A stretch of 32,247 nucleotides of DNA from Tannerella sp. (lineage in GTDB: Bacteria > Bacteroidota > Bacteroidia > Bacteroidales > Tannerellaceae): contig JAIRMH010000307.1 in NCBI GenBank assembly GCA_031258835.1, positions 1 through 32,247 on the forward strand, read 5' to 3'. The position numbers were made by a program, and so were the translations under genes. Below, one piece after another: positions 1-8,235 of the stretch. Each line of letters opens with the position of its first letter. The stretch's first letter is position 1. The notes beneath the pieces are model-generated. The model was not told the origin of the DNA, did not search any database, and saw nothing but the letters and a program-made list of their open reading frames with translations.

Positions 1-1
1 G

Positions 2-244
2 AAAAAAACCTTTTTCGCATCAAGATACAAAAGACTGGCAGCACGTAAGGGCAAAAAAAGAGCCATCGTAGCATTGGGACATGAGATCCTCAAAGTTGTG
101 TACCATCTCTTGAAAAACAAGTGCGATTATAAAGAATTGGGTGAATGTTATATAGATGAGAGGCGTAAGGTTGCGCAAATCAAATATCACAGGGGAGCCC
201 TGAAACAACTCGGAGCGGATTTGCCCGGTAGAGAAAGCGCATAA
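2..244 (+). pseudogene. IS110-family transposase, C-terminal part cut by window edge
   Basis: Reading from base 2 gives about 80 codons ending in TAA at 242-244. The peptide begins around RYKRLAARKGKKRAI and continues through LKVVYHLLKNKCDYKELG. This is the typical C-terminal tail of IS110/IS116/IS902 transposases (end of the Transposase_20 region: arginine/lysine-rich RLAARRGKKRA, then a helix ending in Y-x-LG). IS110 enzymes are DEDD recombinases guided by a bridge RNA. Only the tail is inside the window, so whether the element is intact to the left cannot be judged. The family call is confident; the status (functional or decayed) is unknown. Confidence 0.8.
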
Positions 245-634
245 CTGCGCACAAATCCTCAGGCCGATTCTTACCGAGACATCCAAGCCCGAAGAGGAAA
301 CTGGCCTAAACAACCGGGAGGCAATGACTGTTGCTTCGAGCACGCGAATGAAAATTCTTATAAACTTGGTTGTTTTAAAACATAGAAATGCCTGTACAAC
401 AGTTGCGAATGTCATACCGATGTCCGTTCTTTTTTTGTTGTGTCTAATAAACTTCAATATCAACAAGATGCTGATTTTAAGTGCTTTCACATACTGACTA
501 TTTACGAATGAAGGTACGAAATAAAAAAGTAGCATCCGAATTATTTAACATCATTTATATACAGACTGGGACTACAAACGACTTTTCTGGCCAACCCTAT
601 TTTATAATACCTTCATTATAAGCTAAATACAAAT
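245..634. other. Non-coding stretch after the IS110 transposase
   Basis: There is no convincing gene here. It probably contains the 3' non-coding end of the IS110 element. One long-range stem is visible: AAACAACC at 308-315 pairs with GGTTGTTT at 368-375, enclosing about 52 bases with smaller internal symmetries. In the IS1111 branch of IS110 elements the guide RNA lies downstream of the transposase, so a structured RNA is possible but not shown. The element boundary is not identifiable by eye. Confidence 0.35.
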
Positions 635-754
635 TTGGCAACCTCGACTAACAGCCCAATTCCATGCCATTTTGATGGGTATTTTTGCCAAGTTGGGTTA
701 AGGAGCTGCAAAATTCTTTCACGAAAGGGAAACGGCGAACAGAAGAAGACCGAA

Positions 755-970
755 TGGTATTTGCAGGCGGCTTCAATCGAAGAATTTATGAGCGTTATAA
801 AAATGCTGCGCAAGCACGAACAGCAGATTATAAATTACTTCCGGCATGGGGCTACTAACGCTAAAGCAGAATGTCTTAACGGGAAAATTCAACGATTCAT
901 AACTAACAACTACGGACTTAGGGATAAAGATTTCTTCCTCTACTGTGTGGCCGGTTATTTTTCCTTATAG
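755..970 (+). pseudogene. ISL3 (ISAon1-like) transposase C-terminal remnant
   Basis: The open frame runs from 635 to 970, but only the part from about 755 looks like a transposase. It contains LRKHEQQIINYFRHGATNAK, then AECLNGKIQ and GLRDKDFFLY. This matches the C-terminal signature of ISL3-type DDE transposases (ILNYF-x-x-R-x-TNA-x-AES-x-NAK-I and G-x-R-x-x-x-FFL). Ser of the usual AES is Cys here. Full-length enzymes are roughly 300-400 residues, so over three quarters is missing. Codons 1-40 of the open frame show no resemblance to the family and are probably fused flanking sequence. Confidence 0.7.
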
Positions 971-1038
971 CACCTCAAAAAAAGATTTAGCCAATAAGTT
1001 TTTTTTAATTGCCGTATTTTTTTTATGATTTTGTGTTG

Positions 1039-1064
1039 TTTGTAAAAAAAATACAATAAATTTG
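1039..1064 (+). promoter_or_regulatory. Possible promoter for the ECF sigma gene
   Basis: TAAATTTG at 1057-1064 fits the Bacteroides -7 element TAnnTTTG. The upstream TTTG options are at 1039-1042 (spacer 14) or 1030-1033 (spacer 23); neither has the ideal 19-21. It would leave a leader of about 95 bases before the GTG at 1166. Confidence 0.4.
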
Positions 1065-1165
1065 TCGCGCGGATTGAGAAAGTTTTTTGAACTCCGTGGG
1101 AAGAATGAATGGAGCCATGGAATCATTTATTTTTACGATGAATATGTTAAATTGGAGATGTTGTT

Positions 1166-1738
1166 GTGAATCGAGACATTTGCATATCTTTAATCATAGG
1201 CCTTAAATCGGGTTCTTATGAAGACTTTGATAAACTGTATGCAATCTATTCGGATATGCTATACGGTTTTGTACTGAATCTGACCAAATCGCCGTCGGAG
1301 GCTGAGGATATTTTGCAGGAGACTTTTTTGCGGGTATGGCAGACGCGAGCAAAAATATCTGAAGATAAGTCTTTTAAATCCTATTTATACACAATCGCCC
1401 GGAACCTGATCATTGATTCTTTTCGCGATCAAATGAAAAGCGTGGCATTTGAAGAGTATATAAATAGCGAGGCTTATCAGTCCTATACGGAAAATTGTGT
1501 CGAGGAAAGTATTGATTTTGATGAATTTCAAAGAGTGTTTGAAAAAGCTAAGAGAAAACTGACGGAGAGACAACTGCAAATATTTGAACTTAGTCGGGAA
1601 CGGGAACTTTCCATATCCGTTATAGCAGAAACGTTACATCTTTCCGAAAAAACGGTGAAAAATCAGCTATCGTTAGCAATGAAAACGCTGCGGGATGAAT
1701 TGTCATATTATTATCTTTTTATCTTCCTGTTTCTTTGA
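1166..1738 (+). CDS. ECF RNA polymerase sigma factor (FecI/RpoE-like, Bacteroidota type)
   Basis: The 190-residue product has the two domains of an ECF sigma factor. Region 2 is at about residues 22-92 (FDKLYAIYSDMLYGF, then EAEDILQETFLRVW, the core-binding helix, and SYLYTIARNLIID). Region 4 is at about 130-182 (LTERQLQIFELSRE followed by a helix-turn-helix, LSEKTVKNQLSLAMKTLR). The start is a GTG; upstream ATGs are out of frame and GGAG lies 8 bases before the GTG. The tail is unusually hydrophobic (YYYLFIFLFL). It sits just upstream of fecR and a susC carrying an STN domain, the standard trans-envelope signalling arrangement: receptor to anti-sigma factor to sigma factor. It is expected to activate this locus when substrate is bound. 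Confidence 0.93.
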   Translation: MNRDICISLIIGLKSGSYEDFDKLYAIYSDMLYGFVLNLTKSPSEAEDILQETFLRVWQTRAKISEDKSFKSYLYTIARNLIIDSFRDQMKSVAFEEYINSEAYQSYTENCVEESIDFDEFQRVFEKAKRKLTERQLQIFELSRERELSISVIAETLHLSEKTVKNQLSLAMKTLRDELSYYYLFIFLFL

Positions 1739-2033
1739 TAGCAGCGCATCCGTACGGTAACCGGTATGAGTTCATCCTATTTCGACTGCGTACAAATGAA
1801 CTTTGCCTGTAACGATCCGCGACCTGCCGATTTATGGCGATTACGACCGTTTATATTTCCGATTTATTTCTAAAATGTGTTTTATAACATACCAAATCGG
1901 TCGGGACTTTTTGTCCTTCCGAACGTAATACTTAAGAATATAAAAACAAATGTACATGAAATTTTTGAATTACACACAGACGGATAAAACTGTGTCCGGC
2001 AAAATTTATAGAAAAAATTTATAGAAGACGTTT
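1739..2033. promoter_or_regulatory. Sigma-fecR intergenic region with structured leader
   Basis: There is no gene in these 295 bases. Near fecR, ACACAG (1974-1979) and CTGTGT (1990-1995) form a 6-bp stem with a 10-base loop. It is followed by AAATTTATAGAA (2002-2013), and an 11-12 base version of that string recurs at once (2014-2025). The block 1962-2013 aligns without gaps to 9781-9832 before the beta-helix gene. Bases 1947-1965 are identical to 24171-24189. A weak imperfect hairpin lies around 1899-1920 (GGAC TTTTT GTCC). Confidence 0.5.
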
Positions 2034-3008
2034 ATGGAAAAATTTCCGTTAAAAGATTTATTAGCACTCTTTCTTTATGAGAAGGTTACTCCGGAAGAGT
2101 TTCGCAAATTGAAAGAAATCGTCAAACGTTCTCCGAACGGGGAATTAGATGGCGAACTTAAATCAATATGGGATGAAATGGATTCGGTTGCCTCGATGAA
2201 TAGAGAAATAAAAGCGGAAGTATTGGCAAATATTCACCTGCAAATGTTAAGCGGGAATAAACGGATCTTTTTTCGGCGGATAAAGATGGTCGCTGCCGTC
2301 TTGCTGTCTGTGATTATTTCATTAGGGTCCTATTTTTATTTTTCAGGCAAATACCGGACAATACCGGAAGAGTTCATTATTATGGCAGAAGGCGGGCAGA
2401 AGACAAAAATACTTTTACCCGACGGAACGCGCGTATGGCTTAATTCCGATTCTAAATTGAGTTATGCCTCCGATTTTAACCGGAACAACAGGCTTGTGAA
2501 ATTAGATGGAGAAGCTTTTTTTGAAGTCGAAAAAAATACCGATATAAATTTTACGGTAGAGACTGAATGTGTCAATGTGGTTGTACATGGTACGGCATTT
2601 AATGTGTCGGCATATAAGAAAGATCCGGTTATCGAAATATCCCTGTTGAAAGGAGTCGTCCGTCTGGCATATCCCGACAATACATTAATTACGGGGTTGT
2701 ATCCTAATCAGATCGCATCTATTTCAAAAAAAAATATGAAGTGGAAGGTTCAGTCTTGTGATGCGGAAATGGAATGTTTGTGGACACAGAACAAACTCAA
2801 ATTTGAAAATGCACCTGCGGCGGAGGTCTTTCGTAAACTGGAACGTTGGTATGGAGTGAATATATCCGTTGAAAATATGAATGAAAAGATTCTCTATGGA
2901 TTCACCTTAAAAAGTGAATCGCTTAGGGAAATACTCTATGAAATTAATAAAATTACACCTATTGTATACAAAATAAACGGAGAGGAGGCGAGTATTACAT
3001 ATAAATAA
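2034..3008 (+). CDS. FecR-family anti-sigma factor with DUF4974 domain
   Basis: This is a 324-residue inner-membrane anti-sigma factor. The N-terminal cytoplasmic part (1-80) would bind the sigma factor. A single membrane helix lies at about 84-103 (MVAAVLLSVIISLGSYFYF). The periplasmic FecR domain spans about 112-212, with the family hallmarks AEGGQKTKILLPDGTRVWLN, LDGEAFFEV and VHGTAFNV. The C-terminal DUF4974 domain (about 254-322, KLKFENAPAAEVFRKLERWY) is typical of Bacteroidota FecR proteins and is thought to contact the STN domain of the partner transporter. The gene follows the sigma factor and precedes susC. The length is normal for the family. Confidence 0.94.
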   Translation: MEKFPLKDLLALFLYEKVTPEEFRKLKEIVKRSPNGELDGELKSIWDEMDSVASMNREIKAEVLANIHLQMLSGNKRIFFRRIKMVAAVLLSVIISLGSYFYFSGKYRTIPEEFIIMAEGGQKTKILLPDGTRVWLNSDSKLSYASDFNRNNRLVKLDGEAFFEVEKNTDINFTVETECVNVVVHGTAFNVSAYKKDPVIEISLLKGVVRLAYPDNTLITGLYPNQIASISKKNMKWKVQSCDAEMECLWTQNKLKFENAPAAEVFRKLERWYGVNISVENMNEKILYGFTLKSESLREILYEINKITPIVYKINGEEASITYK

Positions 3009-3014
3009 TCGGAT

Positions 3015-3050
3015 AAAAAAAATGCATGAGGAACTGCCATTCCTCATGCA
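3015..3050 (-). terminator. Intrinsic terminator reading leftward
   Basis: The stem TGCATGAGGAA/TTCCTCATGCA is perfect (11 bp) with a 6-base loop. Read on the minus strand it is followed by eight T residues; read on the plus strand no T tract follows. It therefore serves a minus-strand transcript, although no minus-strand protein gene lies here. Confidence 0.8.
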
Positions 3051-3117
3051 CAGAATAACATAACGTGTAATAATCCCTTTATCTAAGCGACGCTTGGATA
3101 AAATCAGGTTATTTACA
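3015..3117 (-). ncRNA. Candidate antisense sRNA in the susC leader (DonS-like)
   Basis: On the minus strand a -7 element TAACTTTG (3130 to 3123) fits TAnnTTTG. About 75 bases downstream a perfect 11-bp stem (3040-3050 with 3023-3033, loop 3034-3039) is followed directly by eight T residues on that strand (3022 to 3015). This is a textbook intrinsic terminator. The predicted transcript is about 100 nt and has no good ORF. A second hairpin lies inside it (3079-3089 with 3091-3101, one mismatch). Bacteroides fragilis encodes cis-antisense RNAs of the DonS type at this position, between the anti-sigma gene and susC, which repress the transport operon. No clear -33 element is seen. Confidence 0.6.
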
Positions 3118-3122
3118 AGGGG

Positions 3123-3130
3123 CAAAGTTA
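3123..3130 (-). promoter_or_regulatory. -7 promoter element for the antisense RNA
   Basis: The minus strand reads TAACTTTG, an exact TAnnTTTG match. There is no recognisable TTTG 19-21 bases upstream; the sequence there is an A/T run. The predicted start site is near 3117. Confidence 0.5.
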
Positions 3131-3161
3131 ATTGTTTTTTTTAATTTTAATCTAATATCAT

Positions 3162-6100
3162 ATGCAATTTAAAAAATTAATCATGCTGTTTTTTTTAATG
3201 TTGATATCTGGCGCTCTGTTTGCCCAGTTATCACAGAAGATGGATATTAATCTGGATAATGCCAGTTTGAAGGAGTTTTTTGCCGCCATAGAGAGTAATA
3301 CGGAATATACTTTTATGTATAAAAACCTGAATCTTAATACTCCGGTGTCTGTGGAAGCAAAACAGAGAGAACTCGGGGATATTTTGGAGCAGGCGCTGAA
3401 AGACATAAACCTAAGTTATGAGGTGTCAGGTAAACATATCATCTTAAAAGATTTATCCGCTGAAGAATTTCAGATAAAGAAGAAAACGGTAACCGGTACC
3501 GTTTTGGACGAACATGGAGAAACGATCACGGGCGCCAATGTTGTCGAAAAAGGAACTGCGAACGGGGTAATTACGGATGTTGACGGTAAGTTTACACTAG
3601 AGGTATCGGAAAATGCAACGTTACAAATATCTTTCATCGGGTATGCCGTTCAGGATATTAGCGTAGGAAATCGGGCAGATATATCGGTACGGTTGATGGA
3701 AAACGCGCAAGCGCTGGACGAAGTTGTCGTCGTAGGTTATGGAACGCAGAAGAAAGTGAACCTGACCGGCGCCGTTGCCGCGGTGAAGTTCGACGAAAAA
3801 ATGTCCAGCCGGACGGTGACGAATTTGTCGACAGGGTTGTCCGGTTTGATTCCCGGTCTGGTTGTGCAGCAAAGTACGGGATTTGCCGGATTTGACGGCG
3901 CTACTTTACAAATCCGCGGGTTAGGCTCGGTCAATAATTCGAATCCCCTGGTCGTTGTCGACGGAATGCCCGATGTGGATATAAACAGAATTAATATGAA
4001 TGATGTGGAAAACATCTCTGTATTGAAAGATGCCGCATCGTCGGCTATTTATGGTTCGCGAGCCGCCAATGGCGTAATCCTGATCACTACCAAAACGGGA
4101 AACAGGGACGAGAAGGCAAAAATCAATTATACAGGCTCTTACGCCATATCCGAGATGAGTAACTTCTATGAATATTTAGCCGATTATCCCAAGGCCATGA
4201 CAATGGAAATGCGTGCGGTAGGCGCTGGAAACGGCTCTTCGGGATTCCGTTATGGAAGTGTAGAACAATGGATGGCCAGAGGATTAGTAGACCCCATTCT
4301 TTTTCCGAACACAAACCAGTACGATGAAATGTTTCGCCGCGGAAAGGTTCAGACCCATAATCTTTCCGCTTCGGGAGGAAACGAAAAATTTACGTTCTTT
4401 TTATCTGCCGGAATAATGAATCAGCAAGGCGTACAAATTCATAACGATTATGACAGGTATAATTTCCGTGTGAATCTTGATTACAAAATCAGGGATAATA
4501 TAACGGTCGGATCCCGTATGGATGGCCAATGGACAAACTCCGTATATCCGAGAGGCGCCGGACTGGAAACAGCCGGATTGATGTATGCCGTATCGGGCAT
4601 CCTCAATTATAATCCTGAAACGGGACAATACGGGGGAGGTATGGCCTATGGAGAGAACGGTTCGGCAGGGAATATGCTGGCCGAATACGAAGTTTGGCAC
4701 AGCAACAGAAATCAACAGCAGTACAATGGGAATATTTTTGGAATCTGGGAAGTGATAAAAGGATTGAAAGTGAGAGCGGATTATTCCATTCGCTACTACA
4801 ATCAGTTTACCAAAAGCTATAATGACCCGACGGTTCAATGGAATTTCCAGACCGGAATGCAGTCGCGAACGATGATTGCCGCCAATGCCGGCGTATCGCA
4901 GGAAATCAGGCAGGGTTACAAAACATTGCTGCAGGGACAGATCTCGTATGATAAAGAATTGTTTCCCGGACATCAGTTTTCGATGATGGCAATAGCCGCC
5001 GAAGAATTTTGGTTCGACCGTTTACTGAACGGTTCGCGAAATGACCGTTTGCATCCGTCCCTGTCAGAGTTGAATGCTACGTTGATGTCTTCGCCTAACG
5101 TCGGAGGATACTCGTCTACGGAGGGATTACTCTCCTATATCGGACGGTTGAATTATACGATGTACGATAAGTATCTGCTGGAAGTTAATTTTCGCTACGA
5201 CGGTTCGTCGAAATTCTCTGAAGGTCATCAGTTCGGATTCTTCCCTTCGGTAGCTTTAGGCTGGAGGATATCCGAAGAAAATTTTTTCGAACCGCTCAGG
5301 GATCTCATCAGCCAGACAAAACTTCGCGCGTCTGTCGGCTCTTTGGGAAATAACACATTGAACGCCGGCTCTGTCTTGTCGGACAGGGGCGAACAACAAC
5401 GCGTGCTTTCCAATACGAATTATATCATCAACGGAGGTCTGGCGAAAGGTTTCAGCAATACCAAAATGATCAATCCCGAACTTTCGTGGGAAGCGACTAC
5501 AGTCAAAAATATCGGATTGGATCTGGGATTTTTCAATAATAAACTTTCTGTGGAACTCGATTGGTATGACCGGCTTACAACAGGAATGATCCGCCCGTCG
5601 GACTTTTCTACATTGCTTAGCGGGTATTCCGCACCGCGTAAGAATATAGGGGAACTTCGTAACAGGGGCGTTGAAATCAACCTCAATTGGCAATCCAATA
5701 TCAGAGAGTTGAAATACAAGATAAACGTCAATGCGTCGATAAACAGAAATTCGCTGGAAAAATGGAACGAATTTCTGGGTAAAGGATGGATTTACTTAGA
5801 TATGCCTTATCATTTTGTTTACGGATACGAGGCGCAAAATGAACTGATTCAAAGCTGGAACGAGATATACAATGCTCCTTTCCAGGCTGCAAATTATATG
5901 GCGCCCGGCGATATCCTGCTGAGAGATGTAAATGGCGACGGGCAGATAAACAGCGAAGACCGTACGGCTTCGGACGGGAAATACCGCGATCGGGCGTCGG
6001 GACAATATGGATTGACATTCTCGTTAGAATGGAAAAATGTTGATTTGATGACGTTATTCCAGGCTGCTTCCGGCAGATGGGATTATTGGCTGGATTCTTA

Positions 6101-6470
6101 TAATAACGTGAATCCGCCGGCAGACCGCTATGGCTTTCAGGCTTTCCACTGGTATGATACATGGTCGCTGGATAATCGTGATGCGTCTTTACCCAGGTTA
6201 GCAACCGGTTCGGGTGGAAGAAACAGGGAAGAATCGACGTTTTGGCTGGATAATGCAGGTTTTATCCGAATGAAGAACTTGCAACTCGGATATAATGTGC
6301 CCCGGAAATGGATACGGAAAATTCAATTAGATCATATTCGTATCTATTTTTCTGCTGAAAACATATTTACAATTACAAAATGGCGGGGTGTCGATCCGGA
6401 TAAATACAGAGACTTTGACCCATATCCTTTAGCAAAAACATATTCGATAGGTTTAAATATCGGATTATAA
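3162..6470 (+). CDS. SusC/RagA-family TonB-dependent outer-membrane transporter with STN domain
   Basis: This 1102-residue protein is an outer-membrane barrel that imports glycan fragments together with SusD. A signal peptide ends at about residue 21 (SGALFA/Q). Next come an STN secretin/TonB short domain (about 28-97), which marks transporters that signal to a FecR anti-sigma factor, and a carboxypeptidase-regulatory-like domain (about 108-183, VTGTVLDEHGETITGANV). The TonB box is DEVVVVGYGTQ at 186. The plug follows to about 313 (LQIRGLGSVNNSNPLVVVDG, AASSAIYGSRAANGVILITT) and the barrel runs to the C-terminus, ending in GLNIGL. The length is normal. susD starts 19 bases downstream. Expression is probably controlled by the upstream sigma/FecR pair and possibly by the antisense RNA in its leader. 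Confidence 0.97.
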   Translation: MQFKKLIMLFFLMLISGALFAQLSQKMDINLDNASLKEFFAAIESNTEYTFMYKNLNLNTPVSVEAKQRELGDILEQALKDINLSYEVSGKHIILKDLSAEEFQIKKKTVTGTVLDEHGETITGANVVEKGTANGVITDVDGKFTLEVSENATLQISFIGYAVQDISVGNRADISVRLMENAQALDEVVVVGYGTQKKVNLTGAVAAVKFDEKMSSRTVTNLSTGLSGLIPGLVVQQSTGFAGFDGATLQIRGLGSVNNSNPLVVVDGMPDVDINRINMNDVENISVLKDAASSAIYGSRAANGVILITTKTGNRDEKAKINYTGSYAISEMSNFYEYLADYPKAMTMEMRAVGAGNGSSGFRYGSVEQWMARGLVDPILFPNTNQYDEMFRRGKVQTHNLSASGGNEKFTFFLSAGIMNQQGVQIHNDYDRYNFRVNLDYKIRDNITVGSRMDGQWTNSVYPRGAGLETAGLMYAVSGILNYNPETGQYGGGMAYGENGSAGNMLAEYEVWHSNRNQQQYNGNIFGIWEVIKGLKVRADYSIRYYNQFTKSYNDPTVQWNFQTGMQSRTMIAANAGVSQEIRQGYKTLLQGQISYDKELFPGHQFSMMAIAAEEFWFDRLLNGSRNDRLHPSLSELNATLMSSPNVGGYSSTEGLLSYIGRLNYTMYDKYLLEVNFRYDGSSKFSEGHQFGFFPSVALGWRISEENFFEPLRDLISQTKLRASVGSLGNNTLNAGSVLSDRGEQQRVLSNTNYIINGGLAKGFSNTKMINPELSWEATTVKNIGLDLGFFNNKLSVELDWYDRLTTGMIRPSDFSTLLSGYSAPRKNIGELRNRGVEINLNWQSNIRELKYKINVNASINRNSLEKWNEFLGKGWIYLDMPYHFVYGYEAQNELIQSWNEIYNAPFQAANYMAPGDILLRDVNGDGQINSEDRTASDGKYRDRASGQYGLTFSLEWKNVDLMTLFQAASGRWDYWLDSYNNVNPPADRYGFQAFHWYDTWSLDNRDASLPRLATGSGGRNREESTFWLDNAGFIRMKNLQLGYNVPRKWIRKIQLDHIRIYFSAENIFTITKWRGVDPDKYRDFDPYPLAKTYSIGLNIGL

Positions 6471-6489
6471 AATTTAAAATAGTAACAAT

Positions 6490-8235
6490 ATGAAAAAGAT
6501 AATATATATATTTTTGACCGGCATTTTTGTTTTGCCTTCGTGTATCGACGATATACTCACGCAGGAATCGGCAGTCGATTTACCGGATGCTTATTTCTGG
6601 AACACGACGGATGATGCCTTATCGGCCGTATATGGCGTATACAATGCAACGCGTACGCTTTTCGGACGTGATTATTATTTCGACGGAATGGGCGAATTTC
6701 AATGGACTCGCGGTACCAGTCTGGGAAGCGGGACATGGCATCCGCAAGCAAGTTCGGCGAGTAGCATGGGCTTCATGTGGAACAATGCCTATGCTGTGGT
6801 CAACAGGGCTAATTACGTCCGGATGAATCTCAAAATGATGATTGAAAAGGAAAGTAATAGCAATACGTTGAATACGTTGAAAAGAATTGAAGGCGAAACT
6901 TGCTTTCTGAGAGCGTTGGCTTACTTTCGGCTGATACAATTGTGGGGCGATGTCCCATTCTACACAAAGGTATTGACCGGAAACGACGAAGCCGTTACGC
7001 TTACCCGTACGCCGATCTCCGCCATCAAAGATTCTCTTCTTTCAGACCTGACTTATGCCATAGAAACGCTTCCGGAGACATTGGCCGGAAGTGAACGGGG
7101 ACGAGTATCGCAGGCTGCCGCATATGGATTTCGCGGGAAGATAGCGTTGTATTGGGCTTCGTGGAAGAAAAACGGCTGGCCGGAACTTAGCGGGTTTACC
7201 CGGGATGCAGGCGAAGCTAACGAGTATTATGTCCGCGCAGCAGCTGATTTTGAAAAGGTCATCAAAAATTATGGGTTGAAATTGTTCGGCGAAGGTAATC
7301 ACGGCACTGCCGATCATCCGAAATACTGGGACTTGTTTCAAGTCGCAAATGAATATGATCCGGAAATTATATTTTCCGTACAATACGGTGGGCCGAACTT
7401 GGGACAAGGACAGGAATTGCAGAGAGATTACGGCACACGAAGTACAGGGAATGCCCAATGCTGGGTGCAAGCGACTTATCGTCTGGCGAATCGCTACCAA
7501 TCGCTTACTACCGGCGATTTTCTTCCCCCATTGGTATTGAACGCAAGCGCAACGCTGGAAGGCGGAGCGCGTAATCCGGCCTCTTATTATAACAGGGATT
7601 GGCGGATGAAAGCTACTATTCTGTGGGATGGACAGAAAATGCTGCGAATCGATGCGAGTGGTTATGCTGTCGGCGACAGCATAACGTTTATGTTTGGAAG
7701 TACCGACGGAAATACGTACATCAATTACGATTCAAATCCCATGACAGGTTATCTTTTCCGTAAATGGGTGCGTCAGGAAGGAATTGCCGAACGTAGCGAC
7801 GGGCCTTGCGATTTCTATCTGATGCGTCTCGCCGACGTGTATTTGATGTATTGTGAGGCCGTTAACGAAGTGAGCGGGCCGAATGACGAGTTGGTGGAAT
7901 TGGTAAATAAAATCAGAGCCAGAGGGAATTTACCCGGATTAGCGCCTGAAAAATATGCAGATAAAAATGCTTTCTTTGATGCTATTGAACAGGAACGGAT
8001 TGTAGAATTGATAGCTGAAGGACATCGCCCGTTTGATATACGCCGCTGGAGGAAAGTGGAGGCAATATGGCCTTCCCCGACAGGACAAGTCTTGTATAAT
8101 TCAAGCGGTACCCGGATACGGGATGAATTTCTGAATGCTCCCGAACGTGATTATCGCCGGTTTTATATCTATCAGATACCGACGGCTGAACGTGAACGGA
8201 ATGTGAATCTGACACAAAATGATCCATGGTTATAA
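6490..8235 (+). CDS. SusD/RagB-family surface glycan-binding lipoprotein
   Basis: This 581-residue lipoprotein has its signal peptide and lipobox at 15-18 (LPSC, Cys18 lipidated). The body has the SusD pattern. An N-terminal helical TPR-like part contains DAYFWNTTDDALSAVYGVY and EGETCFLRALAYFRLIQLWGDVP. The C-terminal RagB/SusD domain contains LRLADVYLMYCEAVNE, LVNKIRARGNLPG and the closing IEQERIVELIAEGHRPFDIRRW. SusD caps the SusC barrel and captures the oligosaccharide. It follows susC by 19 bases and is certainly in the same operon. The substrate cannot be read from the sequence. Confidence 0.97.
   Translation: MKKIIYIFLTGIFVLPSCIDDILTQESAVDLPDAYFWNTTDDALSAVYGVYNATRTLFGRDYYFDGMGEFQWTRGTSLGSGTWHPQASSASSMGFMWNNAYAVVNRANYVRMNLKMMIEKESNSNTLNTLKRIEGETCFLRALAYFRLIQLWGDVPFYTKVLTGNDEAVTLTRTPISAIKDSLLSDLTYAIETLPETLAGSERGRVSQAAAYGFRGKIALYWASWKKNGWPELSGFTRDAGEANEYYVRAAADFEKVIKNYGLKLFGEGNHGTADHPKYWDLFQVANEYDPEIIFSVQYGGPNLGQGQELQRDYGTRSTGNAQCWVQATYRLANRYQSLTTGDFLPPLVLNASATLEGGARNPASYYNRDWRMKATILWDGQKMLRIDASGYAVGDSITFMFGSTDGNTYINYDSNPMTGYLFRKWVRQEGIAERSDGPCDFYLMRLADVYLMYCEAVNEVSGPNDELVELVNKIRARGNLPGLAPEKYADKNAFFDAIEQERIVELIAEGHRPFDIRRWRKVEAIWPSPTGQVLYNSSGTRIRDEFLNAPERDYRRFYIYQIPTAERERNVNLTQNDPWL

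Follow-up and report, generated by a model that had tools for sequence, protein, structure and literature searches.

Does a SusC/SusD locus that is governed by its own sigma factor carry, on the same message, a second layer of control in the form of an antisense RNA? FecI/FecR-type ECF sigma/anti-sigma pairs control SusC/SusD loci as a transcriptional layer, and the present locus, contained in a contig of 32,247 nucleotides from Tannerella sp. (the entire stretch analyzed, termed here the window), has the same order of genes: sigma factor, fecR, susC and susD. The predicted RNA encoded opposite the fecR-susC gap would constitute the second layer.

Organization of the locus

All four genes are encoded on the plus strand. 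The ECF sigma factor gene (1166–1738; TIGR02985, 134.1 bits, cut-off 126.4) is the partner of the fecR-type anti-sigma factor gene (2034–3008; PF04773, E 3.6e-17; PF16344, E 1.4e-15). A gap of 295 nt (1739–2033) lies between the two. The susC homologue (3162–6470; TIGR04056, 848.3 bits, cut-off 368.25), whose leader is complementary to the predicted RNA, precedes a susD homologue (6490–8235; PF07980, E 1e-47), downstream of which a small protein, a DUF4466 protein and a pectate-lyase-like protein are encoded.

The predicted antisense RNA

A first-pass annotation of this DNA had described, on the minus strand of the fecR-susC gap, a -7 box, about 100 bases of non-coding sequence with an internal hairpin, and an intrinsic terminator with a perfect 11-bp stem and eight T residues, and all of these elements were found again. 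The -7 box, TAACTTTG, is read from 3130 to 3123 (feature 3123–3130, minus strand) and is a predicted housekeeping-type Bacteroidota promoter, situated 31 nt from the susC ATG and directing transcription leftward. If the 5' end lies ~6 nt past the box, the RNA would be ~103 nt in length (3015–3117, minus strand) and its start would fall ~45 nt ahead of the susC ATG. The 109-nt region folds with -32.2 kcal/mol (z -4.29) into an internal hairpin and the terminator. The former is the 5' domain hairpin (3066–3117, minus strand; limits from the minimum-energy fold), while the latter (3015–3051, minus strand), located by scanning and by covariation, has 13 pairs when the outer pairs are counted, the 11 inner ones being perfect, with the apex GAATGGCAGTTC. 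The stem arms, TGCATGAGGAA and TTCCTCATGCA, occupy minus-strand positions 3050–3040 and 3033–3023, enclose a loop of 6 nt (3039–3034) and are followed by the eight T residues (3022–3015).

Under a strict definition (at least 10 contiguous pairs and 7 of 8 T), this terminator is the sole such site on either strand of the 32-kb window, and none arose when the window was dinucleotide-shuffled 100 times. A looser scan of positions 1–8000 detected 8 terminator-like sites against 8.3 expected, among which the one at 3015–3051 has the most pairs; such loose sites are thus no commoner than chance, and it is the strength of this terminator alone that counts. The first-pass annotation had maintained that no leftward protein gene needs it; among ORFs of at least 80 aa, none of the leftward ones in the vicinity resembles a gene with such a need, the nearest (3158–3406, 82 aa) being opposite susC. 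The -7 box pattern alone is common in the window (21 plus-strand and 14 minus-strand occurrences), and the -33 region is weak (TTAG with a 21-nt spacer), a caveat raised at the outset that stands. The whole window yielded no match to Rfam release 15 at or above the gathering score, and positions 2900–3300, searched at E up to 1, gave two matches, both sub-threshold. In the own genome, a motif search with the box and 5' end (up to 3 mismatches) matched the window alone.

Homologous units in related genomes

A DNA search of 61 genomes revealed two same-genus orthologues of the whole gap, 85% and 71% identical. Short DNA matches in sibling genomes (L030–L033) were rejected as units and represent look-alike promoter stretches before other genes: AAAAAAAACAATTAnnTTTGCCC and similar stretches, nearly identical to that of the box, precede two tRNA-Leu genes in L032, and box-like stretches precede ORFs in L030, L031 and L033.

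A search of 123 family genomes for FecR homologues, with E 1e-48 as the limit, defined 20 loci, including that of the window. The homologous unit was present in the fecR-susC gap of 15 of these, again counting the window, and absent from four (L146, L152, L153 and L156), which counts against the unit; the gap of L156 contains a terminator of another type. The remaining locus (L155) runs off its contig. At the order level (393 genomes), the unit was found in G427, while G490, in which susC overlaps fecR, has no unit, and the gap of G380, where the next ORF is not SusC-like, has no such unit. Among named relatives, 80 loci were found with a FecR alignment query and 23 of them were read. The six closest named loci divide evenly. 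The unit is present in Prevotella sp. TD116_bin30, Tannerellaceae Roe453_bin14 (whose gap sequence is that of G084) and one locus of Dysgonomonas sp. Marseille-P4677. It is absent from Bacteroides finegoldii, the second Dysgonomonas sp. Marseille-P4677 locus and a MAG labelled Sphingobacterium sp., which counts against the unit. The first-pass annotation had made its proposal depend in part on conservation of the terminator or the -7 box in related loci; both are kept in different genera, and the stem displays compensatory changes.

The unit in fecR-susC gaps of the genus

The genus was sampled through 86 FecR loci, comprising 26 from the own genome and 60 of the best 66 entries of a longer list ordered by score. 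The six that were skipped include five minus-strand loci within ~1.5 kb of a contig start, and the sample is non-random; the G007 and G008 orthologues are outside it. At least 300 nt followed fecR in 80 of the 86 loci, 73 of which then encoded SusC (phmmer), and in 56 of these the gap reached 100 nt. In 31 of the 56 gaps, a TAnnTTTG box on the minus strand preceded a terminator, versus none on the plus strand and a mean of 0.9 (maximum 3) in ten rounds of shuffling the 56 gaps. The script scored the other 25 gaps as unit-free, which counts against the unit, and some of the script-negative gaps (e.g., L004) seem by eye to contain a terminator. Stems were weak in two of the 31 units (L075 and L119).

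In most of these units (25 of 31), the box lies over the susC start codon (CATAnnTTTG; e.g., L005, L008 and L011), such that the same DNA serves as promoter and start codon. The window unit, with its box away from the start codon, belongs to the minority type.

Within the own genome, the unit was detected in 11 of 20 fecR-susC gaps. Genes for susC without fecR were drawn from 30 of 56 own-genome susC matches; 27 had at least 300 nt upstream, of which 3 adjoin FecR and 24 do not, the FecR neighbours being assigned from contigs with FecR loci. Among these matches, the unit was present in 2 of the 3 susC genes adjoining FecR and in none of the 24 examined without fecR, one of which (L268) has a minus-strand terminator without the box.

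Covariation, fold and strand

Seventeen homologous units were aligned from the box to the T run (alignment A4), omitting the near-duplicate G076, the G084 copy L162, and L042, a second G008 locus with another loop. Across the 13 pairs of the terminator, 99.1% of stem cells were paired (n=17), a percentage favoured by the choice of units, which were picked with the terminator in view from loci found by FecR homology; slid registers of the same stem gave 42–57%. Two-sided changes affected 8 of the 13 pairs, with 35 such cells versus 9.3 in column shuffles, whereas the number of further pair types, one of five measures, displayed no excess (18 versus 18.1). RNAalifold predicted the same 13 pairs and none besides. 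The TAnnTTTG box is exact in 15 of the 17 units and inexact in two, at a distance from the ATG of 18 to 61 nt (29–39 nt in 14 units), and 8 units keep the terminator apex GAATGGCNGTTC unchanged. All but one of the 17 have a poor -33 region, the exception having TTTG at a spacer of 18–23, which counts against the promoter. The 5' domain differs widely in sequence among the homologues, yet in 16 of the 17 a single hairpin covers 70% or more of it, versus 6.1 from shuffles.

These data bear on whether the hairpin might serve the plus strand instead, within the susC leader or as a terminator behind fecR, the minus-strand reading being accidental. The hairpin is perfect on both strands, and the 5' domain folds without strand preference (mean z -2.44 for the minus and -2.29 for the plus strand), which counts against an antisense RNA. 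However, the hairpin has no plus-strand T run, and no plus-strand terminator was called there in the loose scan of 1–8000. In the 56 genus gaps, terminators taken alone are found on the minus strand in 36 and on the plus strand in 1, compared with 8.4 and 0.8 in the shuffles. Moreover, read on the minus strand, 12 pairs of the A4 stem contain 37 G-U cells and no A-C, a ratio that the choice of units may itself favour and to which one nearly invariant apex pair contributes 16 of the 37; the inner ten pairs contain 18 and none. For a plus-strand RNA the reverse would be expected, and the conserved RNA is thus that of the minus strand. On this wobble asymmetry the plus-strand reading was rejected, and we regard it as very improbable.

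Covariance-model search

A covariance search in other Bacteroidales had been suggested in the first-pass annotation. A covariance model of A4, termed R1, was run on 123 family and 295 order genomes and yielded four further places, three of them antisense to SusC-like genes. The window was matched at 3017–3130 (E 3.3e-12), by construction, because it is in the model. Only 16 of the 123 family genomes, 4 of them of the own genus, contain R1 matches; the unit is thus patchy, which counts against it. The four places beyond A4 and its near-duplicate G076 are L254, L255, L257 and L258, the SusC-like genes being recognized by eye. At L254 the match is antisense upstream of a SusC-like ORF (by eye; the front of the ORF is unclear), and at L257 it is antisense at a SusC-like start. 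At L255 (G068:C99, 1501–1594) it lies antisense before a susC-like gene with ~34 nt spacing, as in the window, and the upstream neighbour of that gene is not fecR-like, which indicates that the RNA is not restricted to loci with the sigma/anti-sigma pair. At L258, a TonB-receptor-like ORF begins ~410 nt further on.

The copy number and placement of the matches bear on another possibility, that the unit encodes a trans-acting small RNA with a conserved seed, akin to FopS or GibS, which stands beside susC by descent only. The FopS and GibS small RNAs of B. thetaiotaomicron act in trans via a shared 5' seed; FopS comprises 14 members, their targets being susC messages (PMC11697453, PMC7366714). 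Like them, the window RNA is predicted to be small, with, in the case of FopS, a connection to susC messages, and several members of the present group have in common a short stretch past the box (GCCAAT and the like). In contrast to the 14 FopS members, R1 matched the own draft genome (86% complete) a single time (E 0.01 or better) and other matching genomes once or twice, each RNA facing its own susC. Furthermore, all of the 19 distinct R1 places except L258 are antisense beside a SusC-like ORF (by eye), and the sequence past the box varies widely. A trans-acting role therefore appears improbable.

Motifs on the sense strand

Two motifs were observed on the strand of susC. The first is a synonymously frozen element, GGAGAGGAGGCGA, in the 3' end of fecR (2979–2991, plus strand), recognized by codon conservation in 22 FecR genes. 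Its codons GGA, RAG and GAG occur in all 22 and the following GTG in 17 (GCG in the window). Of the 172 columns scored, the four of GGA-RAG-GAG-GTG form the run with the strongest synonymous conservation. In the genus sample (n=73) the GGARAGGAGG element is confined to the window locus, whose orthologues lie outside the sample. It was also found in four FecR genes with unit-free gaps (G129, B. finegoldii, the second Dysgonomonas locus and G093), and its distribution thus follows the FecR clade rather than the RNA. The element, GGARAGGAGGTGA, resembles a strong Shine-Dalgarno sequence or a promoter element, and may possibly be part of a susC sense promoter, or something else.

The second motif, GCCTATG, is a plus-strand feature of 35 of the 56 gaps and has no minus-strand occurrence among them; counting all 73 loci raises the number to 36, and the window is without it. 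In 31 of the 35 gaps it is located 115–147 nt before the susC ATG, and loci carrying it include L004–L006, L008, L011, L016–L018, L020 and L022. A TAACC/TTAAA-like stretch is seen by eye ahead of the motif, and the combination looks like an ECF promoter. We consider it likely to be the ECF sigma promoter of susC, a label of our own; a literature search on ECF promoter motifs at such loci found no papers. In the portions of the literature that were searched, we likewise found no description of the homologous subclass together with the two sense-side motifs.

With GCCTATG upstream of susC in these gaps, a pair of promoters would point towards one another over the leader. This arrangement, together with the position of the motif in the 31 gaps, lends some weight to transcriptional interference, in which leftward transcription against the susC polymerase would be what matters and the RNA a by-product, the terminator confining transcription and sparing fecR an antisense reading. 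It agrees with the box and terminator being the best conserved elements while the sequence of the 5' domain drifts, as well as with the predicted RNA falling short of the start codon. For collision alone, however, neither the fold kept by the 5' domain in 16 of 17 units nor the apex exact in 8 of 17 would be needed. The literature consulted links such RNAs to repression, though it does not separate pairing from collision. We consider interference as the principal function unlikely, while giving it more credence than the plus-strand and trans-acting possibilities.

Relationship to known antisense RNAs

PUL-associated antisense RNAs of the DonS type in Bacteroides were reportedly first described by Cao et al. 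2016 (J Bacteriol 198:2410). The first-pass annotation had claimed that DonS-type RNAs occupy the same place as the unit of the window, and the published DonS-like RNAs do fit it in anatomy, strand, fecR-susC position and predicted length (PMC7366714, PMC10994844). DonS is described as the representative of a family of cis-antisense RNAs of 78–128 nt with a negative effect on susC homologues. In B. thetaiotaomicron, the number of RNAs reported at such a position was ten and rose later to 32, some of them validated by northern blotting and some anti-correlated with susC (PMC7366714, PMC10994844). For B. fragilis, 15 loci are mentioned (PMC9723704).

The predicted RNA of the window likewise runs opposite the front end of a susC homologue; its ~103 nt, predicted from sequence, fall within the class, and it ends at an intrinsic terminator, which we assume to be a defining property. 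The likeness to DonS is one of anatomy, strand, place and length, with DonS taken from its published description. In its start ~45 nt before the start codon, the window RNA differs from the 25 of 31 genus-sample units with the box on that codon. Homology across genera through the terminator stem is demonstrated here from the alignments; no such description was encountered in the DonS-like literature consulted.

Proposed function

The promoter box, terminator, strand, conservation and place of the unit are demonstrated at the level of sequence. Its most probable identity is that of a DonS-like cis-antisense RNA of ~103 nt that would hold down susC, both expression and repression being proposed from sequence and by analogy. 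The RNA would be made leftward from the housekeeping-type promoter 31 nt upstream of susC, stop at its own terminator just behind fecR, and be complementary to the susC leader. Its production would proceed while FecR holds the ECF sigma factor, and by analogy its pairing with the leader would lower SusC/SusD output when the substrate is absent. Once freed, the sigma factor would generate more susC message than the RNA can cover, and repression would end. The distance of the RNA 5' end from the start codon makes start-codon blocking unlikely, and leaves decay, leader refolding or collision. The antisense RNA would thus probably act by duplex-triggered decay or by altered folding of the leader, perhaps together with head-on transcription.

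More tentatively, and with less confidence than in the repressor itself, the window unit might represent a related class of susC antisense RNAs, set apart from the majority anchored at the start codon. In such a class, GGARAGGAGGTGA (2979–2991) and the antisense housekeeping promoter would bracket the leader as a module, and the RNA would act away from the ribosome start site, via decay, leader folding or collision.

Antisense RNAs of sugar uptake are known from RNA-seq of gut Bacteroides, where noise is hard to exclude. The compensatory changes and one-sided wobble described here indicate that the RNA strand is itself under selection in a number of genera, not all of one family, and the covariance model offers a way to find such RNAs without RNA-seq. 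The link to fecR-susC gaps, together with the division of the units into those with the box at the start codon and those beginning well ahead of it, would render the mechanism directly testable, as start-site blocking, decay or collision.
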